Shown here one piece after another: positions 5,152 through 22,589 of a stretch of 64,000 bases of DNA (the first letter of the stretch is position 1; every line of letters begins with the position of its first letter). This DNA comes from Aureliella helgolandensis. Lineage in GTDB: Bacteria > Planctomycetota > Planctomycetia > Pirellulales > Pirellulaceae. The DNA lies in assembly GCF_007752135.1 (NCBI RefSeq), contig NZ_CP036298.1, positions 4,588,001 through 4,652,000 of the forward strand, read 5' to 3'. The notes under the pieces were generated by a model. It saw only the letters and a program-made list of their open reading frames with translations, made no database searches and was not told the DNA's origin. Position numbers and translations under genes: made by a program.

Positions 5152-5802
5152 ATGAATGCAACGTTTCGAATTCTCGCCGCCATAGCCCTAGTATGCACGA
5201 TCAGCACCGTATCGATCGCCCAAGATTCGAAGAAACCGCAGGCCGATGACAAGTCAGCCGCCTGGACGCCCCTTTTCGACGGCAAATCGCTCGATGGCTG
5301 GGAAAAAGTCGGCAATGAGGATAGCCATTGGGAAGTCAAAGACGGCGAGATCGCGGGCTCTGGCTCGCAATCGATGCTCGTATGTACCCAAGGGCCCTAC
5401 AAGAACTTCCGCTATCGGGTGGAAGCAAAGATCAATGACGGTGGCAACTCAGGGGTTTACTTCCGCACGACGCGCAAACCTGGCTTCATGGATGGCTACG
5501 AAGCCCAGGTCGACAGCACGCATACGGACCCGATTCGCACGGGATCTCTGTACGGTTTCTGCCACGTCTACAAGCAGCACGTTAAACCGGGTGAATGGTT
5601 CAGCTACGAGATTGAAGTCCGCGATGACGTTTGGCGTGGGCGCGACATGACTCGTATTAAGATCACCGTGGATGGCAACGAACTCTACGAATACATGGAC
5701 TTTGCCAAAACCTATCCAGCCGGGCACTTTGCATTTCAACAACACGATCCCGGCAGCAAAGTCAACATTCGCAAAGTCGAAGTGATGCCACTGGATGACT
5801 AA
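5152..5802 (+). CDS. Secreted DUF1080 protein (3-keto-disaccharide hydrolase family)
   Basis: Single-domain DUF1080 protein of 216 residues with a signal peptide ending near residue 24 (SIAQ). The domain opens with the characteristic LFDGKSLDGW motif, followed by WEVKDGEI, a GNSGVYFR strand and a GYEAQVDST strand that are hallmarks of this concanavalin-like fold. Characterised relatives hydrolyse 3-keto-glycosides or bind glycans outside the cytoplasm. It stands at the left end of the carbohydrate-degradation region, 409 bases before a DUF1593-GH127 pair, which suggests a role in sugar processing. The length is normal for the family. Which sugar it acts on cannot be inferred. Confidence 0.88.
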   Translation: MNATFRILAAIALVCTISTVSIAQDSKKPQADDKSAAWTPLFDGKSLDGWEKVGNEDSHWEVKDGEIAGSGSQSMLVCTQGPYKNFRYRVEAKINDGGNSGVYFRTTRKPGFMDGYEAQVDSTHTDPIRTGSLYGFCHVYKQHVKPGEWFSYEIEVRDDVWRGRDMTRIKITVDGNELYEYMDFAKTYPAGHFAFQQHDPGSKVNIRKVEVMPLDD

Positions 5803-6211: not shown

Positions 6212-7543
6212 ATGAGCCATATGTATACCTACCTGAGCATCGCTGATCCGCTATCGCATCGATTTAGGCGGTTCGCTGTATCGCTTTGTATTTTGGCCGC
6301 GATGGCGTCGAATCTTACCGCGGAAGACGGGGCCCTCGCGGGCGTTCGGCATCGCGTGCTGGTGTCATCCGACATTGGTGGCACGGATCCAGATGACGTG
6401 CAGTCCATGGTGCATCTTTTGGTTTACGCCGACGTCTTCGACCTAGAGGGACTCGTATCCTCGCCTTACGGCCCAGGGCGCAAAGAGCATATCCTGCAAG
6501 TCGTCGATGCATACGAGCAAGACTTTCCGCAGCTTAGTTCACATTCCGCTAGCTATCCGGAGCCGGATGCGGTGCGGGCAATTTGCAAGCAGGGCGCCAT
6601 CGATTCACCGAGAGCATCGGGACTTGGCAACCCGACCGAAGGCTCCGCATGGATTATCCAGTGTGCGAAACGCGACGATGATCGACCGCTGCATGTGCTT
6701 GTTTGGGGCGGTATGGAAGACTTAGCTCAAGCGCTGCACGACGCGCCGGAGATTTCACCGAAGCTGCGGGTCTACTGGATTGGCGGCCCGAATAAAAAGT
6801 GGAGTGTCGATGCATATAACTACGTCGAGCAACACCATCCCCAATTGTGGATGATTGAAGCAAATGCAACCTACCGTGGCTGGTTCGTGGGTGGCAACCA
6901 GAAGGGCGAATGGAACAACAGGGCATTCGTCACCGAACATATTGCCGATCACGGCGCGCTCGGCGCGGCTTTCGTGAACGCCAAAGGTGACATCAAAATG
7001 GGAGACACTCCGTCGGTCGCCCGACTGCTATGGGGCGCATCTGAAGACCCGACGCTACCCAGCTGGGGTGGTCAATTTGTTCCAATCTGGGACGGTCGCA
7101 AGACGATTTTCGAGGAATGGCCTCAACAGTCTGCCAGCGTCGAAGTCTTCGGCGTCACAGAATTCGCGTTACCACTTCCCGCAGGATATACAGCCACGAA
7201 CACGACATCGATGGTGTTGAATCGAGGCGTGCCGGCTTCCATCGGCGTTGTGGATGGCAACGTGTTGCGTTTTCGTTTTTCACCACGTGATGCGAAGACT
7301 TGGTCCTACGTGCTCCGCAGCGACTTCGACAAACTGGACGGACTGTCTGGCAAGTTCGACGCCGTGCCACCTCCGCTCTCGCGCACGCGTCTGCCTTCAA
7401 ACGAGCATCCCAACTGGTGGATCGATGATCCCGATCCAGCAGCGGCCGTAGGAGTTCATCCTGGAGCCAACAGCGTTAGCCAGTGGCGCGAGAAGTACCT
7501 CCACGATTTTGCCCAGCGGATGGATCGCTGCAAACTGAATTGA
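6212..7543 (+). CDS. Secreted DUF1593 protein (Sde182-like, nucleoside-hydrolase fold), short form
   Basis: First of three DUF1593 proteins in the window. The ATG at 6212 gives a signal segment (about residues 20-37). The N-terminal domain has the nucleoside-hydrolase-like acidic motif SSDIGGTDPDD (residues 52-62), where Asp residues could bind calcium, then VWGGMEDLAQAL and GDTPSVARLL motifs typical of PF07632. Unlike the other two copies it lacks the C-terminal NHPPVV...DPDGDxLxYRW domain; instead it ends in about 150 residues of different sequence. The family includes a cellulose-binding protein of Saccharophagus (Sde182), but enzyme activity is not established. It lies 42 bases before the GH127 gene and is probably cotranscribed with it. 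Confidence 0.85.
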   Translation: MSHMYTYLSIADPLSHRFRRFAVSLCILAAMASNLTAEDGALAGVRHRVLVSSDIGGTDPDDVQSMVHLLVYADVFDLEGLVSSPYGPGRKEHILQVVDAYEQDFPQLSSHSASYPEPDAVRAICKQGAIDSPRASGLGNPTEGSAWIIQCAKRDDDRPLHVLVWGGMEDLAQALHDAPEISPKLRVYWIGGPNKKWSVDAYNYVEQHHPQLWMIEANATYRGWFVGGNQKGEWNNRAFVTEHIADHGALGAAFVNAKGDIKMGDTPSVARLLWGASEDPTLPSWGGQFVPIWDGRKTIFEEWPQQSASVEVFGVTEFALPLPAGYTATNTTSMVLNRGVPASIGVVDGNVLRFRFSPRDAKTWSYVLRSDFDKLDGLSGKFDAVPPPLSRTRLPSNEHPNWWIDDPDPAAAVGVHPGANSVSQWREKYLHDFAQRMDRCKLN

Positions 7544-7585: not shown

Positions 7586-9631
7586 ATGACTATTTCCGCT
7601 CCCTTCCTGCAGCCTCAATTTGCACTGAAACTCGTTGGTATTGGTGTGGCAATTTTCTTTGCGATTCAGACGATTAAGGTGTCTGCGCAGTCCGCACACT
7701 TAAGCCCACATCAAGCAGTGCAACGCGTTCCACTATCGGAAACGAAGTGGACGGGCGGCTTCTGGCAACAACGCGTCGCGACGTGTGAAGAAAAGATGCT
7801 CCCCGCGATGTGGGAGATCATGCAGGGGACGAAGTACAAGCCGTACCTAGAGCATTTCCGAATCGCGGCGGGGCTGTCCGCAGGAGATTACCACGGAGCT
7901 CCCTTCAACGATGGTGACTTTTACAAGTGGATGGAAGCGGTCTGTGCATTACAGGCCGTCGTTCCCAATCCCGCGTGGGACAAACGCTTGGATGAAATCA
8001 TCGCCATCATTGGCAAAGCACAACGAGCGGACGGCTATATCCATACGCCAGTTCTCGTCGCGGCCCGCAACGGCGATCCAAACGCTAGGCCCTTCGGCGA
8101 TCGGTTCAATTTCGAGATGTACAACATGGGACATCTCATGACGACTGCCTGCCTGCACTATCAGGTGACAGGCAAAGACGATCTGCTGACGATCGCTCGA
8201 AAAGCTGCGGACTTCCTCGACGATGCCTTTCGCAATCCCCAAGCGGATGAAGCGCGTCACGCCATCTGCCCGTCGCACTATATGGGGCTGATCGAACTCT
8301 ACCGAACCACCAGCGAGCCTCGCTACCTAGCGCTTGCCAAGCGTCTGATTGAGATGAGGGACCTTGTGGTCGACGGTGGCGATGACAATCAAGACCGCAT
8401 TCCTCTCGCCCAGCAGACCGAAGCGGTGGGACATGCCGTTCGTGCCACTTACCTCTATGCTGGCGTAGCCGATCTCTACGCCGAGACCGGAGACGAGGAA
8501 TTATGGACGACGCTCGAGCCGATTTGGAGCAACCTCGTTGGCAAGAAAATGTACCTCACCGGTGGCTGTGGGGCGCTCTTTGACGGTGCCTCTCCCGACG
8601 GTTCCAAAAATCAAAAGTCGATCACGCGCGTGCACCAGGCCTTTGGCCGCAATTATCAATTACCCAACATCACCGCTCACAATGAGACCTGCGCCAACAT
8701 CGGCAATGTGCTTTGGAACTGGCGAATGTTCTTAGCGAAAAGGGATGCAAAATACATCGATGTCTTGGAGCTCGCGCTCTACAACTCGGTCCTTTCCGGA
8801 GTTGCTTTGGAAGGAACTGAATTTTTCTACACCAATCCGTTGCGACATTTTGAACCAGCACCGCTTGCATTGCGTTGGTCGCGGTCGCGTGTCCCCTACA
8901 TGACCGCCTTCTGCTGCCCTCCCAATATTTTGCGAACGATCGCTGAAGCCAACGGCTATGCCTACGGAACGTCAGACAATACGGTCTGGGTCAATCTCTA
9001 TGGAGACAACACTCTTGATACGACTTTGGCAGGTGGTCGTGTGCATCTGCAGCAGACGTCGAATTATCCGTGGAGCGGGGAGGTTCGTTTCGACGTGCTG
9101 CAGTGCGAATCCGATTCCGCCCACTTAAAGTTGCGAATACCGGGCTGGGCAAATTCAGCCACTTTGAAAGTCGACGGGGCGACTGTCGACTTGGCGTTGG
9201 TTGCTGGCAGCTACGCCACGCTTCCTCAAGATCTCCGTTCCGGAATGTCTATCGAGCTGCAGCTTTCGATGCCACCGGTCCTCCTCGAATCTCATCCGCT
9301 CGTCGAAGAAACGCGCAATCACGTTGCCATAAAGCGTGGACCGATTGTCTATTGCCTCGAATCAATCGACCTGCCGCAGGAAAACCGACTGGCCGATATT
9401 CGAGTGCCAGCGGACATGCAGCTCGAACCACGTTTCGATGCAAATCTTCTGCAAGGGGTTTCAGTGTTAGAAGGCAACGTGGTGGCACGACCTTCGGTCG
9501 ACTGGCAAGGTGCCCTCTACCGTGAGTTTTCCCAGCCGACCAGCACACCGATCGCGGCCAAATTTGTCCCCTATTACGCCTGGGCGAATCGAGGGAAAGC
9601 CGAAATGACCGTCTGGCTACCGCTCGACTAA
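7586..9631 (+). CDS. Glycoside hydrolase family 127 (beta-L-arabinofuranosidase, DUF1680)
   Basis: Predicted exported beta-L-arabinofuranosidase. A hydrophobic segment at residues 15-35 is a likely signal peptide. The N-terminus of the mature protein has the TKWTGGFWQQR motif of the family. The zinc-thiolate catalytic site known for GH127 enzymes is intact: Glu367 and Cys369 in NETCANIG, and the Cys443-Cys444 pair in FCCPPN, with spacing close to that of the studied Bifidobacterium enzyme HypBA1. An alpha/alpha barrel is followed by beta domains containing LRIPGWA and KRGPIVYCLE motifs. 681 residues is normal. It would release L-arabinofuranose from arabinan side chains or glycoproteins, fitting the neighbouring pectate lyases. 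Confidence 0.92.
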   Translation: MTISAPFLQPQFALKLVGIGVAIFFAIQTIKVSAQSAHLSPHQAVQRVPLSETKWTGGFWQQRVATCEEKMLPAMWEIMQGTKYKPYLEHFRIAAGLSAGDYHGAPFNDGDFYKWMEAVCALQAVVPNPAWDKRLDEIIAIIGKAQRADGYIHTPVLVAARNGDPNARPFGDRFNFEMYNMGHLMTTACLHYQVTGKDDLLTIARKAADFLDDAFRNPQADEARHAICPSHYMGLIELYRTTSEPRYLALAKRLIEMRDLVVDGGDDNQDRIPLAQQTEAVGHAVRATYLYAGVADLYAETGDEELWTTLEPIWSNLVGKKMYLTGGCGALFDGASPDGSKNQKSITRVHQAFGRNYQLPNITAHNETCANIGNVLWNWRMFLAKRDAKYIDVLELALYNSVLSGVALEGTEFFYTNPLRHFEPAPLALRWSRSRVPYMTAFCCPPNILRTIAEANGYAYGTSDNTVWVNLYGDNTLDTTLAGGRVHLQQTSNYPWSGEVRFDVLQCESDSAHLKLRIPGWANSATLKVDGATVDLALVAGSYATLPQDLRSGMSIELQLSMPPVLLESHPLVEETRNHVAIKRGPIVYCLESIDLPQENRLADIRVPADMQLEPRFDANLLQGVSVLEGNVVARPSVDWQGALYREFSQPTSTPIAAKFVPYYAWANRGKAEMTVWLPLD

Positions 9632-9852: not shown

Positions 9853-10704
9853 TCAGGCCATTCCTGGATGTTGCTCATCGGGCATTGCGTGATGGGCCTT
9901 GCGATAGTCGCGTGGCGAACAGCCGCAAACTGCTTTGAAAGCCTCGTTGAAGCGACTAAGACTCTGGAATCCCGACTCCAACGCAACATTCAAAATGGCA
10001 TCTTGGGTAGTGACCAACAACCGTTGAGCATGGGAGATGCGGTGCTGGATGATGAAGGTCGTCATGGTCGTACCGTACGTCTTGCGAAATAGATTCATCG
10101 CATAGTTCGGGTTCAGGCCATTGGCATCGGCGATCGATTGCGAGGTTAGCGGTTGCTGGTAATTTCGAGCGATGTAACAGGCAAGTTGATCGGCCCGCGA
10201 CAACATCGGTGCGGCACGCTCCGGCGGGCTGTCCGAAATCGCATGGGCAAACCGCAACAGCCTTGCTCGGACTTCCAATTGGGCGGCACGTTCCAAATTC
10301 ACCACCCCGGCTCGCAACTCTTGCTCCCAGCGATTGAATGCAATTTCATCTGCATCGTTCCGCACGGCATCGATCAACAGTTCTCCATGCAAAATGCGAT
10401 TGGCGACGCTTCGATCGATGCCCGCTCGCAGAAACTCGCTCAGCGGCAACGTTAGGACGAAATAGGGCAACTCGCCTTCAAAGTCCACGATTTGGTGAGG
10501 AATTGCAGCCCAGAAAACGCCCAGCGTTCCCGTCTCAATCGTCGTCCGGCAACCGCCCAGCAGGTAGGTTAGGGAACCGGACAGGAGCAAGTTGAGTTCG
10601 ATCTCGTTGTGCCGGTCTGGACGAGGCATGCGAGTTGGTGTCCACCGTTCACAGTTGAAACCGTAGGGCGAGAATTCAGGGCGTTTGGTATCGAATTGCT
10701 TCAT
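9853..10704 (-). CDS. AraC-family transcriptional regulator
   Basis: DNA-binding regulator with an N-terminal cupin-like sugar-sensing domain (RHNEIELNLLLSGSL strand, GVFWAAIPHQI) and a C-terminal AraC-type double helix-turn-helix over the last 100 residues (ANGLNPNYAMNLFRK and VALESGFQSLSRFNEAFK, ending in the classical CGCSPRDYRK). I chose the ATG at complement 10702-10704; an upstream TTG at 10734 adds ten residues. It is transcribed away from the six-gene run that begins at 11010 and toward the end of the DUF1593-GH127 pair. The 300-base gap to the divergent operon is the likely place for its operators. It is the only local regulator seen in the sugar-degradation region. Confidence 0.93.
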   Translation of the reverse strand: MKQFDTKRPEFSPYGFNCERWTPTRMPRPDRHNEIELNLLLSGSLTYLLGGCRTTIETGTLGVFWAAIPHQIVDFEGELPYFVLTLPLSEFLRAGIDRSVANRILHGELLIDAVRNDADEIAFNRWEQELRAGVVNLERAAQLEVRARLLRFAHAISDSPPERAAPMLSRADQLACYIARNYQQPLTSQSIADANGLNPNYAMNLFRKTYGTTMTTFIIQHRISHAQRLLVTTQDAILNVALESGFQSLSRFNEAFKAVCGCSPRDYRKAHHAMPDEQHPGMA

Positions 10705-11009
10705 CGGTCTTAGAATACCGTGACTTTCGGGCAAGAAACAGGGGGAATCGCGGCCTGCAGCATATTAACATCCTACAACACGGGCCGCATCACTATGCAC
10801 GACACGCTCGGTTATTGCGGCGGATTCAGTTTGAGCCGCGCGACGGCACTGGGCGTCTCAGCGGGCCACACGGTGGCGTTGCAGTCAGCCTGTAACAGCA
10901 AGGCATGGTGTCAGGGTTGGCGGGAGCAAATCCTAGCAAGCCTCGGTTTGAAATGCGATGAAGAGTCAGCCACCGACCTCCAATCAGAGCGTTCGCTCAC
11001 GGGAACCCC

Positions 11010-12482
11010 ATGCAACCGATTCTGTCCCCCACCACCGTCCAACTTGCGCGACCCATCTTTTTCGTTGCAAGAGTTTTTGCGATCTTCCTTCTAAGCATCG
11101 CTTCCAGCGCGTTCGCCATCGGAAAAACGCGAGTGCTGGTGCTGACCGATATCGAAAACGAACCGGATGATGCGCAATCTATGGTTCGATTCTTGACGTA
11201 CGCGAACCACTTCGACATCGAAGGCCTGGTTGCCACAACTTCGATTCATCAGCAGAACCGCACTGCGGCCGCGCGCATCAAGCAAATCGTCGAAGCCTAT
11301 GGCAAGGTGCAGAAGAATCTGAGCTTGCACGAACCGGGCTATCCCACGGCAGAATCACTGCTTGCCGTTATCCGCGTTGGGCGCCCGGCTTACGGAATGA
11401 ATGCGGTAGGGGAGGGCAACGATTCCACCGGCTCCGAGTTGTTGATCGAAGCGGCGGATCGCGATGACCCCAGACCACTGTGGGTGCCCGTTTGGGGCGG
11501 ACCGAACGTATTGGCTCAAGCCCTTTGGAAAGTACAACAAACTCGATCGCCCGAAGCGCTCGAGAAATTTGTATCCAAATTGCGTGTCTACACAATCTCG
11601 GATCAAGACGACAGCGGCCCTTGGATCCGCAAGACCTTTCCCAACCTGTTCTACATTGCCAGTCCCGGTATTCACGCTGGCGGAGCGTACCATTACGCCA
11701 CGTGGAGTGGGATTAGTGGCGACAAGTTTCACGCCCGTTTCACGGGTGCCGACTTTAGCATCGTAGACAATGACTGGCTCGACAAACACATTCGCCAGAA
11801 TCACGGCCCCCTTGGAGCCGAGCACCCACATACCGAGTACCTCATGGAGGGCGACACTCCAAGCTTCCTGGGACTTGTCAACAACGGTTTAAACACCCCA
11901 GAAAATCCCAATTGGGGCGGGTGGGGCGGTCGCTATGAGTTCTACACGCCGAGAATGCAGAAGTGGTTTCAAGAGGCCGAAACGCGTCCCTTCTGGTCCA
12001 ACGCCGTCGATGAAGTGAAGGGCTTTGATGGCAATTGGCACACGTCCAACCACGCCACGATCTGGCGCTGGCGTTCCGCCTACCAAAATGACTTCGCCGC
12101 CAGAATCGATTGGACAACCAAGCCCTACGACCAAGCAAACCACCCGCCCGTTGTGAAAATCGCGAGCCCAACAAGTCTCAAAGCCCAAAAAGGAGACACC
12201 ATCCGCCTCAGCGCCGAAGGGACGACCGACCCGGATGGCGACGAGCTCTCCTACCGTTGGTTCTATTACAGCGAAGCAGGCTCGTTCACTACCTCCAATG
12301 CACGAACCGGCGATCCGGTGCGGCTTGAGAACGCGGACCAACCGCAATCGTCCTTCGAGGTTCCTAAGAGCCGCGTGATGTTGCCAGGTACCGGCACCAT
12401 GCACATCATCTTAGCAGTCAGCGACTCGGGCACTCCCAGGTTGACCCGTTATGGTCGCGTCATCGTTGACGTGACCGAGTGA
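11010..12482 (+). CDS. Secreted DUF1593 protein with Sde182-type C-terminal domain
   Basis: Second DUF1593 copy, first gene of a six-gene plus-strand run. The signal peptide ends near residue 36 (SSAFA). The nucleoside-hydrolase-like domain carries [13 protein letters not shown] (residues 46-57) with the expected Asp cluster, [12 protein letters not shown], and [15 protein letters not shown] followed by a tryptophan/glycine-rich [10 protein letters not shown] motif. The last 120 residues (from NHPPVVK) form an Ig-like C-terminal domain with [11 protein letters not shown], as in the Sde182 family. It acts outside the cytoplasm; ligand binding or glycan hydrolysis is possible but unproven. Spacing to the next gene (PL1) is 43 bases. 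It resembles the copy at 18794 closely in architecture. Confidence 0.88.
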
Positions 12483-12525
12483 CCAGCATCGCGCTGAGCC
12501 TCGATCCAACGGAAGTAGAACGCGC

Positions 12526-14262
12526 ATGATTCATCCACAGACGCTCCGGTTGGCACTCGTAGTATTGACAGTGCTGACACTGCACCTGCCCAAACCAGCT
12601 CAGGCTCAGTATCCCAAAATCAGCAAGGCAGTTTCCGCCGAAGCCGACCGTCTTCATAAATTGATGCAACAACGCTCTGATGCAGCTTGGGAGGCGGCTC
12701 TGCCCACCATCCGAGCCTGGGAAGCGAAGGGCAAGCCCTACATTCCTTGGGCGGCCAAACCTTCAGATTTACCTCAGGCCAACCTTCCTGCGTTTCCCGG
12801 CGCACAGGGTGGCGGCATGTACAGCTTTGGTGGGCGTGGTGGCCAAGTCTACGTGGTGACAAATCTTCACGATCGAGGTCCCGGTAGTTTTCGCGATGCA
12901 CTCGAAGCTGGCGGCCCGCGAATCGTGGTCTTCAATGTGGCTGGTATTATCAAACTCAAAGAACGCATCCGCATCCGCGCACCCTACATTACGATTTCCG
13001 GCAGCACAGCACCTGGTGACGGTGTGTGCATTGCCGGAGACACCGTCGAAATCGACACGCACGATGTCATCATCCGCCATATGCGATTTCGCCGAGGCGA
13101 AACGTGGGTGGGCGACCGCAATGATTCGATCGGGGGCAATCCGGTGGGCAATATCATGATCGATCACGTTTCGGCAAGCTGGGGGCTGGATGAAAACATG
13201 TCCATGTATCGCCATACCTTCCGATCGCCGGAAGATTCGCAAGAACAGAAGCTGCCGACAGTCAATATCACGATTCAGAACTCCATCTTCAGCGAATGCC
13301 TAAATCCCTACAACCACTCGTTTGGCAGCACGATCGGTGGATACAATGCCACCTTCCACCACAATCTATGGGCCAGCAATGCAGGTCGCAATCCAAGCGT
13401 CGGCATGATTTATGATTTCACATTTGCCAACAATGTCATCTTCAACTGGCGGCACCGCACGACCGATGGCGGCGATCATCGAAGCTTCTACAACATCATC
13501 AACAACTACTACAAACCGGGACCTGCCACGCCGCTCGATAAACCGATCAGCTACCGCTTTCTCAAACCCGAATCGCGACGAGCGAAATCGCCCGTTGACG
13601 ATTTTGGGCATGCCTACGTCGAGGGCAACATTGCAGAAGGTAACGCGCGAGTCTCGTCCAATAACTGGGACGGAGGTGTGCAAGTCGATTCGAGTGGTGA
13701 TGCGGGAACCATTCTCAAGCAGATTCGTGCTGAACAGCCCTATCCGCATGCGTACTTGGAACTTCAATCCGCCAGCGAAGCGTATGAAACAGTGCTGAAG
13801 CGCGCGGGTGCAACTCGCCCCAAGCGTGACGCGGTTGACATGCGAATCGCCGAAACGGTTCGAAGCGGACGAACCACCGCTAAGGCCGGGCCAAACGTGC
13901 GCGACAAACTTTCCAATCCAAACTATTCGCAGGAGAAGGTGGACGACCTGGTCGACCTAGTCGCGTTGGGGCTCATCACCGACATCGAACAGGTCGGCGG
14001 TTACCCCGAGTATCACGGGCAACCCTACGCGGATGCTGATGCCGACGGCATGCCTGATGAATGGGAAACTCGGCACGGCTTGAATCCGAACGACGCATCC
14101 GATGCGGTGTCCGATCTAAATGGTGACGGATACGCCAACATTGAAGACTTTATCAATGGCCTCGATCCAGGGACATCGCATACAGCCTGGCGCACCCCTC
14201 ACACCTATGAAGACCGCTGGAGTTCTGATCCAGTGCTCAAAGCCAGGCTCGACCGTAATTAA
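12526..14262 (+). CDS. Secreted pectate lyase, polysaccharide lyase family 1
   Basis: Predicted calcium-dependent beta-helix lyase that cleaves polygalacturonate or related pectin by beta-elimination, leaving 4,5-unsaturated ends. Signal peptide at residues 1-26 (ending AQA). After a linker the lyase domain starts at AFPGAQGGG, with FGGRGGQVYVVTNL, GPGSFRDAL, VAGIIKL and IMIDHVSASWGLDE, all standard PL1 landmarks, and ends around INNYYKPGP. The C-terminus has a calcium-type repeat (DADADGMPDEWE ... DLNGDGYANIEDF) as in thrombospondin-3/dockerin-like tails. It lies 43 bases after the DUF1593 gene and 49 before the flavoprotein gene. About a hundred residues precede the catalytic domain, more than in the second copy. 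Confidence 0.9.
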   Translation: MIHPQTLRLALVVLTVLTLHLPKPAQAQYPKISKAVSAEADRLHKLMQQRSDAAWEAALPTIRAWEAKGKPYIPWAAKPSDLPQANLPAFPGAQGGGMYSFGGRGGQVYVVTNLHDRGPGSFRDALEAGGPRIVVFNVAGIIKLKERIRIRAPYITISGSTAPGDGVCIAGDTVEIDTHDVIIRHMRFRRGETWVGDRNDSIGGNPVGNIMIDHVSASWGLDENMSMYRHTFRSPEDSQEQKLPTVNITIQNSIFSECLNPYNHSFGSTIGGYNATFHHNLWASNAGRNPSVGMIYDFTFANNVIFNWRHRTTDGGDHRSFYNIINNYYKPGPATPLDKPISYRFLKPESRRAKSPVDDFGHAYVEGNIAEGNARVSSNNWDGGVQVDSSGDAGTILKQIRAEQPYPHAYLELQSASEAYETVLKRAGATRPKRDAVDMRIAETVRSGRTTAKAGPNVRDKLSNPNYSQEKVDDLVDLVALGLITDIEQVGGYPEYHGQPYADADADGMPDEWETRHGLNPNDASDAVSDLNGDGYANIEDFINGLDPGTSHTAWRTPHTYEDRWSSDPVLKARLDRN

Positions 14263-14311
14263 ACGATCACGCCCTCGAAACAGTTCTCCAACGTAGAGCA
14301 GGCATCATCCC

Positions 14312-16174
14312 ATGAAGACTATCCTTTCGCTCTGCTTGTCGATTTCATTACTGGGGACTCTGTGCGCGGCACCGCCAGATAGCAACACGCACAACAATCG
14401 TGCCGATGAACGCGATGTGGATGAACGCCATGTGATTGTGGTTGGCACGGGAATGGCTGGCTTGTCGGCCGCCTTAGAGGCGGCTCAAAACGGCGCGAGA
14501 GTCACCGTCTTGGAGAAGTGGTCCGTGTTTGGTGGGACGTCCTTCATCTCCGGTGGAAAGCTTGCCATCGTCGGAACCGAACTGCAGAAGTCCAAGGGGA
14601 TCGAGGACTCGCCCGATCTAGCGTTTCAGGACTTCGTCAATTGCGGTAAGGATCTGGATCGGGAGTGGGTGCGATACTATGTAGATCATTCGAACGAGGA
14701 AATCTTTGAGTGGTTGTCGGAGGCAGGCGTGAAGTTCGACATCGTCGCGGCCTTTCCAAGAAACAGCGTCCCCCGCGGTCATGGTTCAAAGGAATTGGGC
14801 GTAGGACTGATCAATCCCCTATTCCGCACCTGCTTCCAACATCCCAACGTAGAATTCGTTTGGAATACCAAGGTCGTCGATTTGGTCCGCGACCAGAATG
14901 AAATCACCGGAGTGAAGGGCGTGGACACGCGTTCTGGCACGGAACGTGAATTCCTGGCGGATGCGGTCGTGTTAGCGACCGGCGGATTTCAGAGCAATCT
15001 GAAGATGATCCGAGAGAACTGGCCCTCGGCCTTGCCTTGGCCCTCCCGTGTATTGACCGGTAGTGGTATTAATAGTCTGGGAATCGGGCATGGCATCCTG
15101 CGTGAGGCTGGCGCAGCATATCATCGGATGAGTTACGTCTGGAACTATCCGTACGGATTGCCCGATCCACGCGATCCCAGCGGCAAACGGGGACTCCTAT
15201 TTGCGCATGGTCGAGCTATTTGGCTGAATGGCGACGGGCAGCGTTTTGTCAGTGAGTCCGCTGACATCGAAGCCAAATTGAACGCGATGTTGCGACAGAC
15301 GCCGGCGAGCTACTGGGCCCTCTTTGACGAGTCCAACAAAACTCGCGTTTACGTAGCAGGAACAGACTTTGGAAATTTTGCGGTAGTCCAGCGAGTCATC
15401 TACGACAATCCGAAGCTCGTCAAATCGGCCATGACCCTCGAATCACTTGCCGAGGCTGCTGGGCTACCCCAAGAGGCAATGGCGGAAACCGTCCGGCGCT
15501 ACAACGCAATGGTCGATGCGGGCAACGATGCGGACTTTCATCGATTCTCGCTGGAAGATTCCGCGGATGAATTGCCACCCAAAATCGAAACGCCTCCCTT
15601 TTACGCCGTACAAATCTACCCTATGACCCGTAAGAACATGGGAGGCGTGTTGACGGACCATTCGTGCCGAGTCCTCGATGCGCAAGACCGCCCGATTCCC
15701 CGGCTCTACGCAGCGGGCGAATTGAGTGGCTTTGCAGGTATCAACGGCACATCGGCACTTGAAGGGACATTTCTCGGGCCTTGCGTCGTGACCGGGCGCA
15801 TGGCTGCACGCACAGCCGTGGCTGATGCCGCTGCGCTGCATCGAGCGAGACGCCCGGCGGCGCCTTCTCAGCCGCCCCAGCCTTCCCAGACGTCACTCCC
15901 GTTATCCCAGCCCTCCCAGGAACTGGAACCAGTCACGGACCTCAACACAGCCGCGTCGAACCAATGCATCGCCTGCCATGATATAAAATCGCTGGTGGGT
16001 ATGAATCGCCCCGGCTACCTCCATTTCGAAAAGTCGCACCAACGGGTACTCGATCGCGAACTGAATTGCTCGACCTGCCACCCTGGCATGAATCCTTATC
16101 AGAAGGATTTGCACCGGATCGACATGCAAGCACTGAGCCACCATTGCGGCACCTGCCATCTATCGAAGGACTAG
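14312..16174 (+). CDS. Exported FAD-binding oxidoreductase fused to a C-terminal triheme c-type cytochrome tail
   Basis: 620-residue flavoprotein of the FAD_binding_2 (fumarate reductase / ketosteroid dehydrogenase) superfamily. A signal peptide covers residues 1-20. The FAD site is clear: VGTGMAGLSAA (44-54), LEKW, FGGTSFISGG (73-82), LATGGF, NMGGVLTD and LYAAGELSG. A proline/glutamine/serine-rich linker (about 508-540) leads to three heme-binding CxxCH motifs at 552-556, 586-590 and 612-616, with extra His residues that could be axial ligands. Classical flavocytochrome c has its hemes at the N-terminus, so the order is reversed. The His and Arg residues used by Shewanella fumarate reductase do not appear conserved, so the substrate is unknown. 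It lies 6 bases before the DUF6807 gene and between two pectate lyases. Confidence 0.88.
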   Translation: MKTILSLCLSISLLGTLCAAPPDSNTHNNRADERDVDERHVIVVGTGMAGLSAALEAAQNGARVTVLEKWSVFGGTSFISGGKLAIVGTELQKSKGIEDSPDLAFQDFVNCGKDLDREWVRYYVDHSNEEIFEWLSEAGVKFDIVAAFPRNSVPRGHGSKELGVGLINPLFRTCFQHPNVEFVWNTKVVDLVRDQNEITGVKGVDTRSGTEREFLADAVVLATGGFQSNLKMIRENWPSALPWPSRVLTGSGINSLGIGHGILREAGAAYHRMSYVWNYPYGLPDPRDPSGKRGLLFAHGRAIWLNGDGQRFVSESADIEAKLNAMLRQTPASYWALFDESNKTRVYVAGTDFGNFAVVQRVIYDNPKLVKSAMTLESLAEAAGLPQEAMAETVRRYNAMVDAGNDADFHRFSLEDSADELPPKIETPPFYAVQIYPMTRKNMGGVLTDHSCRVLDAQDRPIPRLYAAGELSGFAGINGTSALEGTFLGPCVVTGRMAARTAVADAAALHRARRPAAPSQPPQPSQTSLPLSQPSQELEPVTDLNTAASNQCIACHDIKSLVGMNRPGYLHFEKSHQRVLDRELNCSTCHPGMNPYQKDLHRIDMQALSHHCGTCHLSKD

Positions 16175-16180
16175 AGTCTC

Positions 16181-17197
16181 ATGTTTCATCTACAACGTTC
16201 CCGCCCAGCCCGTCTGCTTGCCATCGCCGCTTGTCTGCTTCTGTGCACTGCGGGCCTTCATGCCGAGGAGGGCTTCTCGATTTCTTGCAAGGCATCAAAG
16301 GTCACCATCTCCTACAACGGCGAACTAGTCACCAACTACCTATTTCGTGACAGCGACGCTCGGAAGCCGTATTTTTGGCCGGTCATAGGTCCAACTGGCA
16401 AATCGATGACGCGCGCGTTTCCCATGGAAACAGTCGATGGCGAGCAACACGACCATCCACACCATCGCGGCATTTGGTTTGGGCACCAGGGCGTAGCCGG
16501 CACAGACAACTGGTTGGAGATCGCTTCCAAGAATTTCGAAGGCGCGCAACAAGAGTCTTTTCTGGCTAGCCTAGGTTCAATTAACCACACCGCTTTCACC
16601 CGCATCTCAGCCGATAGTGATGCCGCCATCATTGAGTCGGAAAACGATTACTTGGATTCTTCGGGCAAGCAATTGATGGCCGACCGACGCTCGATGATCT
16701 TCAGAATGTCGGATGACAAGCTGGTGCTCGATTTCAACATTGCGCTGATCGCCCAATACGGAGACGTCGAGCTCGAGGATAAAAAGGACGCAGGACTGAA
16801 CGTGCGAGTGCCTACCTCCATGTCCCTCAAGGACGGCGAGGGACACATCGTCAATAGTGTTGGCGACCGCGACGACGCCACGTGGTCCAAGAGCGCCGCT
16901 TGGGTCGACTACCACGGACCGGTTGAAGGTGAACACTTAGGAATTGCATTCCTCAATCATCCTTCCAGTTTTCGTTACCCAACGCGGTGGCACGTCCGAG
17001 ATTATGGACTCTTCACGGCAAACCCGTTTGGCCCCAAGAGCCTCGATGAGAACGCCGAGTCAGGTACGTTCACCTTGAAAAATGGAAAACACGTCCATTT
17101 GCGCCATCGCATCATCATTCATCAAGGTGACGAAAAGACTGCTGATATCGCGGCTGCCTTCCGCGATTATGCAGCATCACCCGCCATCGGCGATTGA
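16181..17197 (+). CDS. Secreted PmoA-family protein (DUF6807)
   Basis: 338 residues with a signal peptide ending near residue 28 (AGLHA). The body shows the hallmarks of the family annotated as PmoA/DUF6807: FWPVIGPTGKSMTRAFPM, then a histidine-rich HDHPHHRGIWFGHQGV segment (around residues 86-101), a SRGMWYDYHG-like segment (AAWVDYHGP) and a late RHRIIIH strand. Despite the family name there is no sound evidence for methane oxidation; these proteins are frequent in planctomycete sugar loci. The start lies 6 bases after the flavoprotein stop, implying translational coupling and perhaps a joint function. The histidine cluster could bind a metal; this is inference. Confidence 0.82.
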   Translation: MFHLQRSRPARLLAIAACLLLCTAGLHAEEGFSISCKASKVTISYNGELVTNYLFRDSDARKPYFWPVIGPTGKSMTRAFPMETVDGEQHDHPHHRGIWFGHQGVAGTDNWLEIASKNFEGAQQESFLASLGSINHTAFTRISADSDAAIIESENDYLDSSGKQLMADRRSMIFRMSDDKLVLDFNIALIAQYGDVELEDKKDAGLNVRVPTSMSLKDGEGHIVNSVGDRDDATWSKSAAWVDYHGPVEGEHLGIAFLNHPSSFRYPTRWHVRDYGLFTANPFGPKSLDENAESGTFTLKNGKHVHLRHRIIIHQGDEKTADIAAAFRDYAASPAIGD

Positions 17198-17249
17198 GAG
17201 CCTTGGGGAACGTCAATACTGCAGGTTTGACAGCCTAGATTCAAAGACT

Positions 17250-17275
17250 GCCCGCAGGTTTAAAAAATAGCGGGC
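17250..17275 (+). other. Small hairpin within operon
   Basis: GCCCGC (17250-17255) and GCGGGC (17270-17275) flank an A/T-rich 14-base loop, 42 bases before the second pectate lyase start. It has no U-tract. It could be an mRNA-stability or attenuation element in the largest gap (119 bases) of the operon, or chance. Confidence 0.25.
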
Positions 17276-17316
17276 GAACTAATGAGCTTCGATTCACATT
17301 TACAAAGGAACGGGAC

Positions 17317-18762
17317 ATGATTCGACAGAATACTGACAGCCGGTGCAGTACCCAGACCGCCATCCTCGGGCTGTCGCTGGTCTGCCTTGCGCTGCTTTCG
17401 AATACTGCAGCCTCACAGCCCCCCACGGTTCCAGCCTTTCCGGGCGCCGAAGGGTATGGGGCGATGACCAGCGGTGGCCGGGGCGGTCGGGTCATCGAGG
17501 TGACAAACCTTGAGGCAGCTGGCCCAGGAAGCTTGCGAGCAGCCCTTGAGGCCCAAGGGCCACGCATTGTGGTCTTCAAGGTTTCGGGAACCATTGACGC
17601 GGACTTGAACTTCAACCAAGACCACATCACCGTGGCTGGGCAAACGGCACCTGGAGATGGCATTACGATCAAAGGTCAACTTCACATCAATGCCAGTGAT
17701 GTTGTCGTTCGCTACCTACGAGTAAGAGCCGAAGGTCGCGATGATGCGGTGTCCAGTAGATACAAGAAGAATATCATCCTGGACCATGTGTCGGCTAGCT
17801 GGAGCAAAGATGAGGTGATGTCGCTTTACCACGGAGAAAACGTCACCATTCAATGGTGCATGGCTACGGAAGCCTGTGGTGGCTCGCACCGCTTTGGCGG
17901 CATTTGGGGAAACAACCACGGCACTTACCATCATAATCTCATCGCGCACAACATCTCTCGCAATCCCCGTTTCGCTTCTGGCAGCGGAAACAATGATTTC
18001 CGCAACAATGTGATTTACAACTGGCAGCACCAAAGTGACTATGGGGGTGAAGCACAGCAACCCATTAAAGCCACGTCCGCACACAAATTAAATGAAACCT
18101 TCAGCAGCTTTTCAGTAAACATGGTGGCCAACTATTTCAAGCCCGGCCCTGGAACACACCCCGACAGCAAGAATAGAATTTGCTCCCCCTGGTCCCGCAA
18201 CGGCGTGGAAGACTACGGTGACTGGTATCTAGCCGACAATTATATGGCTGGCAATCCCGAGGTTACGGCCGACAATTGGAAAGGCGTTTTCCCGAAATCC
18301 GAGGCGGTCGACGTCGACCTGGATGCAATTCCAGGGTTAAGGCTGATGGCGCCGTCTGAATCCCTACCTATCCCACAGGAAACGGCACAGGAAGCTTACG
18401 AGGCAGTACTTCGCCATGTCGGTTGCTCCTTGCCTGCACGCGACGCGATCGATGATCGCATTATCGAAGAAGTCCGGAGCGGCACTGCAACCAAGGGCGA
18501 CCAGGGGTTTATTGAAACTCCCAGCGATGCGGGTGGCTGGCCTGATCTTCAATCTCAACCGGCACCGGCCGACGACGACCACGATGGCATGCCCAATGTA
18601 TGGGAAGACAAGGCAGGCCTCGATCTGAGCGACGCTTCCGATGCAGCTCAAGACAAAGATAACGATGGCTACACCAACGTCGAAGAGTACATCAACGGAA
18701 CGGATCCCGGCGTATTCATTGACTACACGAACCAGGAAAACAACCTGAACACCTTGCACTAG
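17317..18762 (+). CDS. Secreted pectate lyase, polysaccharide lyase family 1 (second copy)
   Basis: 481-residue PL1-type lyase with a signal peptide to about residue 32. The catalytic domain begins almost at once at AFPGAEGYGAMTSGGRGG and shows EVTNLEAAGPGSLRAAL, VSGTID, VAGQTAPGDGI and IILDHVSASWSKDE, and ends near NYFKPGPGTH. The tail carries a calcium-type DDDHDGMPNVWE ... DKDNDGYTNVEEY repeat. It is shorter than the lyase at 12526 because it lacks the long N-terminal linker, and the two are diverged enough that they may attack different pectin regions. It lies 31 bases before the third DUF1593 gene, in the same presumed operon. Confidence 0.92.
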   Translation: MIRQNTDSRCSTQTAILGLSLVCLALLSNTAASQPPTVPAFPGAEGYGAMTSGGRGGRVIEVTNLEAAGPGSLRAALEAQGPRIVVFKVSGTIDADLNFNQDHITVAGQTAPGDGITIKGQLHINASDVVVRYLRVRAEGRDDAVSSRYKKNIILDHVSASWSKDEVMSLYHGENVTIQWCMATEACGGSHRFGGIWGNNHGTYHHNLIAHNISRNPRFASGSGNNDFRNNVIYNWQHQSDYGGEAQQPIKATSAHKLNETFSSFSVNMVANYFKPGPGTHPDSKNRICSPWSRNGVEDYGDWYLADNYMAGNPEVTADNWKGVFPKSEAVDVDLDAIPGLRLMAPSESLPIPQETAQEAYEAVLRHVGCSLPARDAIDDRIIEEVRSGTATKGDQGFIETPSDAGGWPDLQSQPAPADDDHDGMPNVWEDKAGLDLSDASDAAQDKDNDGYTNVEEYINGTDPGVFIDYTNQENNLNTLH

Positions 18763-18793
18763 GCAACCCTATTAGATTTCGAAGGCGATAACG

Positions 18794-20188
18794 ATGAAAA
18801 GAATTTTGTTAGCGTTATGGGTCAGTTGTGTTGTTACCATACCGGGGATTGCGGTCGAGAAACCTCGCGTTATCGTCACCAGCGATGGTGAAATTGACGA
18901 TCAATGCTCCATGATTCGCTTCTTGCTCTATACGAACGAGTGTGACGTGGAGGGTATCATCTCTTCCAGTTCGCAATACCACGCCCATGGACATCATTGG
19001 GCGGGTGACGATTGGATTGCCCCAGATTTGGACGCCTACACCCAAGTCTATCCAAATCTGGTGAAGCATGATCCGGCGTACCCGACGCCAGAGTACTTGC
19101 GTGAACGCGTTGTCCTGGGAAATGTCAAGTCCGAAGGGGATATGTCTGAGCCCACAGCGGGCTCGAACCTGATCGTCAAGGTCTTGCTCGACGAGACCGA
19201 CGACCGACCGGTATGGCTCCAAGCTTGGGGAGGCATGAACACCATCGCTCGCGCTCTCAAAACGATTAAAGAGGAGCATCCACAGCGGATGGCAGAGGTT
19301 GCGAAAAAGTGTCGCTTCTTCTTTATCTGGGAACAGGACAATACATATCAAGAATACATTCGCCCAGTCTGGGGGAAGTATGAAATTCCGACCATTATTT
19401 CAGATCAGTTCGAGGCAATCGCGTATCGCTGGAAGCAGGCCCAACCGGAGGAACTCCACAAGTACTTCGACGGTGCCTGGATGAAAGAAAATATCCTTGA
19501 AAACCACGGTCCGCTGTGCTCCATCTACGCCGCGCACGACAATGGTGACTTTCGATCCGAAGGGGATTCGCCTGCATTCCTGCACACCATCGTCACGGGG
19601 CTGCGAAATATGGAGTCGCCAGACTGGGGCGGTTGGGGCGGTCGTTATGTGCGAGTACGTGAGAACACATGGCTCGATCCGGTGCCAGTGGATGGCTACG
19701 AATACCCCCAGGGTCGATGGTACGGAAACACCGGCTGGGGGCGAAACAGCCTCCGCAGCAAATCCACTTCGACACCCGAACAACGTCGAGAGTACTTCAA
19801 GCCAATGTGGCGGTGGACGGCTGCATTGCAAAATGACTTTGCAGCCCGCGCCGACTGGTGCGTGAAGCCCTATGAGCAAGCCAATCATCCGCCGGTAGTG
19901 AAGCTGACGCACGGCCAGGATAGGAAAGTTCGCCCCGGCGAGACAGTCCCCCTGAACGCGGCGGGCACCAACGATCCCGACGGCAATGCCTTGACCTACC
20001 GTTGGTGGCAATATGAGGAAGCCGACTCGGCCAAGTCCAAGATCACCATCGCGGGCGAAGACGCTGCCCAAGCCAGCTTTGTGGTACCAGAGGAATCTGG
20101 CACACAAGTTCACATCATTCTTGAGGTAACCGACAACGGTTCGCCGGCACTGGTACGCTACCAGCGAATTGTGTGTGACATTGAATAG
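18794..20188 (+). CDS. Secreted DUF1593 protein with Sde182-type C-terminal domain (third copy)
   Basis: 464 residues; hydrophobic signal segment at 1-20. The nucleoside-hydrolase-like domain has TSDGEIDDQCS (around residues 29-39), in which the Asp pair is kept but the preceding motif differs from the other two copies, LQAWGGMNTIARAL, and SEGDSPAFLHTIVTGL followed by [10 protein letters not shown]. The C-terminal Ig-like domain starts at NHPPVVKLTHG and contains DPDGNALTYRWW. It is the last gene of the six-gene run. No terminator is obvious after it. Role as for the other copies: an extracytoplasmic glycan-associated protein of unproven activity. Confidence 0.87.
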   Translation: MKRILLALWVSCVVTIPGIAVEKPRVIVTSDGEIDDQCSMIRFLLYTNECDVEGIISSSSQYHAHGHHWAGDDWIAPDLDAYTQVYPNLVKHDPAYPTPEYLRERVVLGNVKSEGDMSEPTAGSNLIVKVLLDETDDRPVWLQAWGGMNTIARALKTIKEEHPQRMAEVAKKCRFFFIWEQDNTYQEYIRPVWGKYEIPTIISDQFEAIAYRWKQAQPEELHKYFDGAWMKENILENHGPLCSIYAAHDNGDFRSEGDSPAFLHTIVTGLRNMESPDWGGWGGRYVRVRENTWLDPVPVDGYEYPQGRWYGNTGWGRNSLRSKSTSTPEQRREYFKPMWRWTAALQNDFAARADWCVKPYEQANHPPVVKLTHGQDRKVRPGETVPLNAAGTNDPDGNALTYRWWQYEEADSAKSKITIAGEDAAQASFVVPEESGTQVHIILEVTDNGSPALVRYQRIVCDIE

Positions 20189-20648: not shown

Positions 20649-22589
20649 TCAACGAGCGATAGGACACATTTTGAACTGACTAAAACTAGCCCAACGATCT
20701 GAGCCGGCTTCGCCCATGTAGCACTGCAGGCTGACCTGCGGCGCAGGCGTGGCCGAATCGGCTGGCAGTGTGGCGGTTCCAACCGCGTTCCAGTCTTGCT
20801 CACCGGGTTCGCGATAGAAGCCTCGGAGTTCGAGCCCCTCTACCTCCAAACGCAGCTGCACTGTATTGGCGGGGTAGGGAACAATAGCGATAGTTCGAGT
20901 TCGGTCCCCCTCTTCGCGTCCCATGACAATATTGGTTTCGCCATGTTCCAACTCCAATCCAATCTTCACCATTAAGGAGTCGCTGTAATACCAAACCAAA
21001 TTGGTTTGCTCCCAACGCTTTTGCGGATGCTGTTCCAATTGCACGCTAATGTCGACAGAGTGCTGCCACGCAGGGGGAATCGGATGAATCAGGACGTTCT
21101 TCGCATCGTTGTCCTTGCCCCACATGTTTCCCGGTTCGATCAGAACCTGCAGAGCAGAGTCGGTTAGCTTCCAACCGTCCTTGTTTTCTCGCAACCATCG
21201 CCATTGCTTCCGCATTTCCCCTTCCAAGGAATCGACGATCGGATCAACTTGCAGGTGTGATGCTGTGATATCCCGAATACTGTTTTCTTCGAGTTCTCCA
21301 GTGACACCCAGTCCCTCTGGTGGCAGATCGGAAACGGTGCAATCGGTCACACTGCAATTCTGACATCCGTCAAGTTGGATCCCATTGCGAGAGCCTGAGA
21401 TCACGCACTCGCTGATGCGGGTGTCGCGGCAATTCTCCAATGAGATGGCCGCCCTACCAGCCAGTAGGTTGTGGCAAATCAACCCCATCACGCTACAGTT
21501 TGAGGAGTTCTTTAAGACAACTTGTCCCGTCCCCTTGGCCTCGCGCGGGTTCATGACGCTATTGGCAATGATGATTCTCTGGCAGTTTTCCACCAACACA
21601 TCGGTAGGTTCGGTCGTGAAGTAGGTATTCCCAATCACGGTCACATCACTGGCTTGCTGCAAATGCACGTGCGTGTGCGTGTCGCTCATCACATTGCCAG
21701 TGATCGTGATCATGTTCGGCTGAAAATCGCCACGTCCAGCGATACGGATGTTTGCTCCGCCGGGTGCCTGCTTTTGAGGATGGTAATGTGCAAAGTGCTG
21801 AATCGTATTGCCGGTGATGGCGACCTCCGCCACCGAACCACTTTCGCGACAGTCGATGAAAAGGTTGCCAGATTCGGTCGGCGTTGGATCGCTGGGCATG
21901 TTGGCTTCGATATCGCAACCGGTAATGTGCAAGTTGCGAACATTCCCCCCGCGCACGACGATTCCGCCTTGCGTGTTATAGCTGATGTGAGAGTTCCCAA
22001 CATTGATTTGGTGTAGATCAACTTCGTTGAGATAAAGTCCGATACCCGAATTATGGTACAGATGCACATTTGAGATCACGACATTTCGGTTTCGTTTGCT
22101 AAGTATGATTCCGTGCCGCGTTTTTCGTATGTGAACGCGACTGATGATCGATTGCATGGTCTGCACCAACTCAATGCCATCGGCCTCGGGATGATCGCCG
22201 ATAATGCCTATGCCATCGATGAGTGGCATCCGTTCCAGCCATGTGTGTTCCTTGATCTGATCCGGATCCGCCCGACCAACCAAGCTGCCGGTGATGCGAA
22301 TCGCTGGACCAGCGGCCTTCATCGTGATAGTCACCGGACCATCCGCTTTCAACGATAGCCCATCGAACTTGGTCAAATCGATGTCGAGCGTGCCGCCAAA
22401 CTCATACTTACCTGCCGGAATGACCAATTTCCCCTTAGACTTTTCCAACAACTTCCCGAGTCGTAGTTGATCGGTTGCCACTAGAGTGTTTTCACCAGCG
22501 CCCGTCGCCGCCGCTGCCTGCTGCGAATAGGCGCGACCGACGAAAGCGGAAAGAACGGCCAGCGTAAACAGGAGGGGGAGCGTTTTCAT
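20649..22589 (-). CDS. Secreted right-handed parallel beta-helix protein
   Basis: 646-residue protein with a signal peptide to about residue 22. Residues 50-440 are a run of short strand repeats rich in N/I/G patterns (for example ITITGNVMSDT, VTVIGNTYF, IIIANSVMN, CSVTDCTVSD) typical of pectate-lyase-like right-handed beta-helices. The last 200 residues form a different domain with KIGLELEHGETNIVMGRE and VQLRLEVEGLELRGFYRE, resembling DUF1349-type concanavalin-like glycan-binding folds. Polysaccharide lyase, epimerase or rhamnogalacturonan-type hydrolase activity are all possible; no catalytic set can be named. It faces the pectin operon tail-to-tail and probably belongs functionally to it. 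Confidence 0.8.
   Translation of the reverse strand: MKTLPLLFTLAVLSAFVGRAYSQQAAAATGAGENTLVATDQLRLGKLLEKSKGKLVIPAGKYEFGGTLDIDLTKFDGLSLKADGPVTITMKAAGPAIRITGSLVGRADPDQIKEHTWLERMPLIDGIGIIGDHPEADGIELVQTMQSIISRVHIRKTRHGIILSKRNRNVVISNVHLYHNSGIGLYLNEVDLHQINVGNSHISYNTQGGIVVRGGNVRNLHITGCDIEANMPSDPTPTESGNLFIDCRESGSVAEVAITGNTIQHFAHYHPQKQAPGGANIRIAGRGDFQPNMITITGNVMSDTHTHVHLQQASDVTVIGNTYFTTEPTDVLVENCQRIIIANSVMNPREAKGTGQVVLKNSSNCSVMGLICHNLLAGRAAISLENCRDTRISECVISGSRNGIQLDGCQNCSVTDCTVSDLPPEGLGVTGELEENSIRDITASHLQVDPIVDSLEGEMRKQWRWLRENKDGWKLTDSALQVLIEPGNMWGKDNDAKNVLIHPIPPAWQHSVDISVQLEQHPQKRWEQTNLVWYYSDSLMVKIGLELEHGETNIVMGREEGDRTRTIAIVPYPANTVQLRLEVEGLELRGFYREPGEQDWNAVGTATLPADSATPAPQVSLQCYMGEAGSDRWASFSQFKMCPIAR

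Follow-up and report, generated by a model that had tools for sequence, protein, structure and literature searches.

The window analysed here, a stretch of 64,000 nucleotides from the planctomycete Aureliella helgolandensis (contig NZ_CP036298.1, positions 4,588,001 to 4,652,000), carries at positions 11010-20188 a compact run of six open reading frames (ORFs) on the plus strand, with gaps of 43, 49, 6, 119 and 31 bases between them. The third of these encodes a flavoprotein with c-type heme motifs that lies amid genes of pectin-degradation type and is the main subject of this analysis. Gene 1 (11010..12482) encodes an exported DUF1593/Sde182 protein (PF07632, E 1.5e-115; PF21027) matching the cellulose-binding protein of PDB entry 2yhg (E 3.9e-93), and gene 6 (18794..20188) encodes a second one (PF07632, E 3.1e-74; PF21027). 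Gene 2 (12526..14262, hereafter PLa) and gene 5 (17317..18762, hereafter PLb) encode exported proteins resembling pectate lyases of polysaccharide lyase family 1 (PL1). Between the two lyases lie gene 3 (14312..16174), encoding an exported FAD_binding_2 protein (PF00890, E 1.9e-67) with a C-terminal triheme c7-like domain, and gene 4 (16181..17197), encoding an exported DUF6807 protein (PF14100, E 2.1e-67).

A preliminary description of this DNA had listed the same six ORFs, coordinates and gaps, all of which we recovered. Pfam agrees with its assignment of genes 1 and 6 to DUF1593, gene 3 to FAD_binding_2 and gene 4 to DUF6807, and the signal peptides that it had proposed for all six products are borne out by signal-peptide-like N-termini in each of the six translations, as judged by eye. 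Its PL1 label for genes 2 and 5 holds in part. Both match the NCBIfam PelZ model partially (E 5e-41 and 2e-32, 141 and 113 bits against a cut-off of 840), and among PDB entries the pectate lyase 9buj ranks first (E 7e-39 and 1.5e-38) and VexL second; Pfam gave no match for either at E ≤ 1e-3.

Directly upstream, three further genes belong to the same setting. An AraC-type regulator (9853..10734, minus strand; PF12833/PF00165) is divergent from the operon, and is preceded on the plus strand by another Sde182 nucleoside-hydrolase-like DUF1593 protein (6212..7543; PF07632, E 1e-59) and by a glycoside hydrolase family 127 (GH127) protein (7586..9631). The latter is close to aceric acid hydrolase, scoring 944.9 bits with NF049879, 5 below the cut-off of 950, and its top PDB match is 5mqo, named as a beta-L-arabinofuranosidase (E 2.8e-202). 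Aceric acid hydrolase is an activity of rhamnogalacturonan II (RG-II) pectin breakdown. A similar association is found in the RG-II and pectin utilisation clusters of Bacteroides, where a pectate lyase keeps company with an aceric-acid-hydrolase-type GH127 and import is of the Sus type. In the planctomycete clusters, by contrast, DUF1593 and DUF6807 dominate, and ATP-binding cassette (ABC)-type ribose import genes stand beside three of them.

The FAD_binding_2 protein of gene 3 is intact and ends in a triheme domain. The three glycines of the flavin adenine dinucleotide (FAD) Rossmann site (G45, G47 and G50) are invariant across 45 sequences. The three c-type heme motifs reported in the preliminary description are present as CXXCH at residues 552, 586 and 612 of 620, and nowhere else in the protein. 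The Cytochrome_C7 model (PF14522) scores 27.0 bits against a cut-off of 24.8, and the 34/26 spacing between hemes is shared by 59 of the 66 three-heme family members, the window protein included. Three further histidines would serve as heme axial ligands: H571 and H576, present in 73 of the 74 other members, and H601, present in 64 of 74. With three CXXCH motifs, regular spacing and three further histidines, the C-terminal part is a triheme cytochrome c7-like domain. The 56-residue linker leading to it is the longest among the three-heme members measured (median 24).

In the predicted structure (predicted local distance difference test score, pLDDT, 86.6; predicted template modelling score 0.85), which has pLDDT below 50 at residues 527-545, the flavoprotein part adopts a fold like that of the soluble fumarate and urocanate reductases and the 3-ketosteroid dehydrogenases, with the three c-type heme sites placed behind the long linker. 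The 35 best PDB fold matches are all fumarate or urocanate reductases, ketosteroid dehydrogenases or cyclohexanone dehydrogenase. Among described systems, one close counterpart is Fcc3/FccA of Shewanella (TIGR01813), which likewise combines a FAD_binding_2 fold, periplasmic export and several c-type hemes in one chain; its structure 1lj1 is the best PDB sequence match (E 8.4e-50), and 1m64 matches in fold (E 4e-39). Gene 3 differs from it in scoring below the TIGR01813 cut-off (258.2 against 285.45 bits), in lacking the catalytic arginine and substrate clamps, and in carrying three hemes at its C-terminus, whereas the S. oneidensis enzyme, as described in the available part of PMC8238504, has an N-terminal multiheme domain. 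The urocanate reductase UrdA (6t86) has the highest TM-score to target among the 50 structures listed (TMt 0.86), but UrdA has an FMN-binding domain; the 14 families in the Pfam listing of gene 3 do not include FMN_bind, and three heme motifs are present instead. The ketosteroid dehydrogenase KstD (4c3x, TMq 0.65) and cyclohexanone dehydrogenase (8am8, TMq 0.62) share the fold at 19-23% identity; the NCBIfam KstD models score 176.5 and 166.2 bits, far under their cut-offs of 789 and 788. Both are dehydrogenases without fumarate-reductase arginine chemistry and, to our knowledge, neither contains hemes.

The fused flavin-cytochrome architecture is of a kind already known: the accessible part of PMC8238504 counts 879 genes from 360 genomes that fuse fumarate reductase-like and cytochrome domains in one protein, and leaves the substrates of many superfamily members unassigned. 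That part of the source describes neither a pectin context nor a C-terminal triheme subgroup. Among the open-licence papers listed for planctomycetes, flavocytochrome c and pectin, none was seen to describe a pathway joining pectin and a flavocytochrome.

The catalytic positions bear on the direction of the reaction. According to the available text of PMC7921117, fumarate and urocanate reductases grip the carboxylate beside the C=C bond with two arginines and a histidine, one of the two arginines being the proposed proton donor, and these contacts are shared across the fumarate reductase family and indispensable to UrdA. In the alignment with Fcc3, which is gap-free for 19 residues around the R402 place, R402, R544, H504 and H365 correspond to I319, A482, R440 and Y279 of gene 3, and an arginine at the R402 column is absent from all 75 full-length members of the family, the window protein among them. 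The tyrosine at the H365 place says little by itself, since UrdA has one there too (Tyr373; PMC7921117, as far as available), but UrdA's Arg411, Arg560 and His520, described in the same part of that source, are not kept in gene 3 when mapped through Fcc3 rather than directly. The NapC/NrfH-type quinol dehydrogenase family PF03264 was not found in the genome, in a search whose Escherichia coli control was positive. Such quinol dehydrogenases are a common feeder of periplasmic reductases. Because the donor arginine and carboxylate clamps are lacking and PF03264 was not found, the evidence favours a dehydrogenase, without proving it. One form of the coupling proposed in the preliminary description, with the unsaturated ends as electron acceptor, would need action on a C=C bond conjugated to a carboxylate in the manner of fumarate or urocanate reductases; the residues at the required positions speak against this, and because the arginine proton donor and clamps are absent, reduction of unsaturated uronate ends by gene 3 in the fumarate-reductase way is unlikely.

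A sample of 119 genomes from the same family was examined for homologs of the cluster. PLa has close homologs (63-76% identity) in G086, G099, G088, G070 and G004, reaching 74-76% in G086, G088 and G099, and the DUF6807 protein has close homologs (70-75%) in G099, G146, G081 and G004. Several of the contigs are short, and partial sets may therefore be cut. The fullest order is that of G146, with PLb, DUF1593, DUF6807, GH127 and two DUF1593 genes consecutively, while the G081 locus holds AraC (71%), PLb, DUF6807 and DUF1593 genes and a partial GH127 match (247 aa). G086 and G088 both have DUF1593 followed by PLa, G086 also with AraC (47%); G004 has DUF1593 followed by DUF6807, and on a separate contig GH127 followed by two lyases; G099 has adjoining DUF1593 and DUF6807 genes and PLa on a separate contig; in G070, PLa is the sole member of the set present. 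Homologs (67-71%) of the DUF1593 protein at 6212..7543 adjoin the PLa homologs in G086 and G088 and the DUF6807 gene in G004. The five other operon genes belong to a pectin-type cluster of which seven other genomes have all or some members.

The flavoprotein is missing from these clusters. By tblastn it occurs at none of nine operon-core loci from the seven genomes, and the 13 genomes that gave a flavoprotein match at E ≤ 1e-40, out of 241 in the family, include none of the seven. Since these nine loci do without it, the flavoprotein is most simply seen as an addition to the cluster in the lineage of the window. Its GC content and codon usage equal those of the neighbouring genes and so do not suggest a recent arrival; a recent horizontal transfer, considered as a candidate, finds no support in either measure.

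Relatives of gene 3 were collected by a scan of GTDB contigs, which requires one of two short peptide patterns and misses relatives with both changed. Of 101 confirmed loci, 80 were kept, at 36-48% identity; together with 15 from genome searches, minus nine shared contigs, they make 86 distinct loci. The relatives come from Planctomycetota, Acidobacteria, Gamma-, Alpha- and Deltaproteobacteria, Opitutae, Gemmatimonadetes and Myxococcaceae. The best match is 48% identical over the full length, or 52% over residues 20-502, and no closer relative was found in the 241 family genomes (the 13 with a match at E ≤ 1e-40 include its own), in 392 genomes of the phylum (two at E ≤ 1e-60, its own included) or in the GTDB scan. 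The genome itself has one strong flavoprotein match and four weak partial ones.

Homologs of the two lyases, three DUF1593 proteins, DUF6807 and GH127 of the window were found at none of the 86 loci (tblastn, E ≤ 1e-8), where a mean locus length of 15.6 kb and a shortest of 4.7 kb (in the set of 80) mean that distant linkage could be missed. The preliminary description had made its coupling of flavoprotein and lyases depend on the two staying together in relatives, and had proposed a search for the same gene order in other Planctomycetota. The core cluster does recur there, but at nine loci of nine without the flavoprotein, and all 86 relatives lie away from the pectin genes; by that measure the lyase link is refuted for the flavoprotein family as sampled. 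For the window protein itself, a lone and possibly re-purposed lineage, the link may still hold, because its nearest relative is only about 50% identical.

This distance is reflected in the phylogeny. With a length of 1.92, where the median is 0.36, the end branch of gene 3 ranks third among 75, and of the 184 columns at which 85% or more of the other 74 members agree, the protein departs at 25. The changes at near-invariant columns include D274S (71 of 74), Q276V (73 of 74), N299H (64 of 74) and S442N (73 of 74), and at column 320, where 68 of 74 others have lysine or arginine (lysine in 62), the window protein has glutamate. The FAD motif, R440-K441 and the conserved heme residues are retained. 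In the Fcc3 alignment, residues 274-279 and 319-322 lie around the places of H365 and R402, and the changed residues would accordingly sit near the substrate pocket. Because residues typical of the family have changed while the redox machinery is kept, a new substrate is suggested. A quick tree placed the window protein outside the 44 Planctomycetota rows; an approximately unbiased (AU) test found a position inside Planctomycetota compatible (p 0.705), that tree having the higher likelihood. Gene 3 may be either a planctomycete ortholog or a foreign lineage.

Taken together, gene 3 is best read as an exported flavocytochrome c, probably a dehydrogenase, that was recruited into a pectin operon. 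The fuller account that we tentatively favour is that a pectin operon, possibly of RG-II type, took in a lone, strongly diverged exported flavocytochrome c, which likely works as a periplasmic dehydrogenase. The operon enzymes would release a sugar, a sugar acid or a keto-deoxy sugar acid; the FAD of gene 3 would take two electrons from the released compound, and these would pass via its hemes to soluble cytochromes and on to the respiratory chain. In favour of this reading, the gene is embedded in the operon, 49 bases from the preceding gene and 6 from the following one, and its codon usage is native. Of the operon proposed in the preliminary description, the pectin-type cluster with an exported flavin-heme protein inside it stands, while the C=C reduction form is unlikely. 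That pectin cleavage is coupled to electron transfer is a hypothesis with one genome behind it, and its oxidation form is possible. A more specific form, which we consider rather unlikely, is that the lyase products themselves (unsaturated uronates or keto-deoxyuronates derived from them) are oxidised outside the cytoplasm by the re-purposed triheme flavocytochrome c, in a periplasmic respiratory route peculiar to this lineage. Electrons would then go straight to the c-type cytochrome chain and the cell would gain energy before importing the sugar, and the route would have arisen through recruitment of an old, widespread flavocytochrome family and alteration of its substrate pocket.

Several points weigh against the recruited dehydrogenase. 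Besides the absence of pectin-cluster homologs from the 86 relative loci, no substrate for any member of the flavocytochrome family turned up among the open-licence papers listed. The long branch and the changed residues may also reflect relaxed constraint, and nine other sequences, all of them Pseudomonadota rows with two CXXCH motifs, differ at more conserved columns than the window protein does. The missing reductase arginine does not prove the dehydrogenase direction: with a shift of one residue, K320 of the relatives could replace the donor arginine, and in the window protein, which has E320 there, K322 could stand in. The absence of PF03264, too, leaves room for other links between quinol and cytochromes. 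The operon itself is proposed from spacing, strand and conserved neighbours, its co-transcription being a prediction; a scan for promoter- and terminator-like sites across the region found no more than expected by chance.

An alternative that we regard as possible, if somewhat doubtful, is that a rearrangement placed the flavocytochrome in the operon as a passenger, where it serves an unrelated periplasmic redox reaction of its family and acts on no pectin-derived substrate. Pectin-cluster homologs are absent from all 86 distinct relative loci, and the family has another recurrent neighbour, a gene for a flavin mononucleotide (FMN)-dependent 2-hydroxyacid dehydrogenase (FMN_dh), at 8 of 81 loci against about 0.2 expected, although these loci are partly close kin. 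A passenger fits poorly with the place of gene 3 inside the operon, 6 bases from the next gene, with the changed residues near the presumed pocket and with the two FMN_dh matches of its own genome, both weak and partial. It is quite improbable that 4,5-unsaturated uronate ends instead serve as an extracellular electron acceptor, their C=C bond being reduced by the flavin with electrons passed through the hemes. The superfamily and overall fold are those of fumarate and urocanate reductases and the operon is shared with two lyases, but the four catalytic positions carry I319, A482, R440 and Y279, the Arg/Arg/His carboxylate contacts are, in the available part of PMC7921117, a conserved trait of the fumarate reductase family and a requirement of urocanate reductase, and the genome shows no PF03264 electron feeder. 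The 56-residue linker, the longest among the three-heme members measured and with pLDDT below 50 at 527-545, may let the heme domain swing, as in a bacterial counterpart of cellobiose dehydrogenase whose linker-borne hemes feed another extracellular oxidative enzyme acting on the plant cell wall. This we judge highly improbable, there being no oxidative partner gene in the operon or at the operon-core loci; the rest of the genome was not searched for one.

The flavocytochrome family to which gene 3 belongs, mostly with a C-terminal triheme domain and without the fumarate-reductase arginine, spans Planctomycetota, Acidobacteriota, Pseudomonadota, Verrucomicrobiota and others. The gene described here is the sole copy found inside an operon whose chemistry can be guessed, and so offers a handle on the function of such enzymes. 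If it does oxidise pectin products, it would represent an extracytoplasmic energy harvest from pectin and a new step in the use of polysaccharides by planctomycetes.

The recurrent FMN-dependent 2-hydroxyacid dehydrogenase gene was seen in Planctomycetota at L039, L044, L053, L058, L060, L062, L070 and L087, within 5.2 kb of the flavoprotein at all eight and within 152 bases at seven; by eye, its products in L044, L053 and L058 have a Tat-like N-terminus. The 81 loci counted are the 84 with a called flavoprotein ORF (L069 and L104 were missed) minus three duplicates, the window and two cut-off loci included, and the chance expectation was calculated from 13 genomes, about 97 Mb in all, which hold 13 strong matches (E < 1e-70). 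We did not retain this gene as a conserved partner: although it is commoner than chance predicts, some of its loci are close relatives of one another, some are truncated at the locus boundary, and the genome of the window offers just the two weak partial matches. Among 77 neighbours scanned of 107, FMN_dh had six members and the BamB-like PQQ_2 family eight, among the 25 listed of the 86 Pfam families matched; BamB-like genes stand at 11 of the 81 loci by raw count. Enolase-superfamily genes lie less than 9 kb from the flavoprotein relative in L040, L042, L044 and L063. In L040 and L044 they resemble sugar-acid dehydratases, with scores below the cut-offs; the L040 locus further encodes a DapA-type aldolase and an L-fucose dehydrogenase (373.7 bits against a cut-off of 300). 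As a clue to sugar-acid chemistry this was set aside, 4 of 81 loci comparing with about 4 by chance (323 MR_MLE_C matches in 13 genomes of about 97 Mb; loci 1.25 Mb).

In four deltaproteobacterial relatives (L107, L109, L111 and L114), the protein stops before the heme domain and has no CXXCH. The gene directly upstream in L109 encodes a small protein with a CXXCH motif, and the heme part may be a separate subunit in such cases. Another flavoprotein occupies a place similar to that of gene 3 in L167, where the AraC and PLb genes of the G081 cluster adjoin a gene (12579-14027, minus strand) for an exported-looking FAD_oxidored protein (PF12831) whose N-terminus is Tat-like.

Ribose-type genes also accompany the pectin genes. 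At three of ten loci (L166, L167 and L169), which are those with a PLb homolog at at least 51% identity, genes for RbsD and a sugar-binding protein stand beside DUF1593 and PL1-like genes; at the other seven, several of them short, none was seen by eye. The regions concerned are 17699-19198 in L166, 287-4498 in L167, 7989-19872 in L169, which is the 20 kb of the own genome directly upstream of the window, and 2-1090 in the window itself. L169 adds a permease and an ABC ATPase, and G081 a PfkB kinase. This proximity suggests a ribose- or apiose-like furanose pentose as the sugar that DUF1593 proteins set free from pectin. The window has other carbohydrate genes on either side of the operon: a 3-keto-disaccharide hydrolase domain protein (5152-5802), a right-handed beta-helix protein with a GH43_C2-like domain (20649-22589) and a GH9-type protein (24626-27214).

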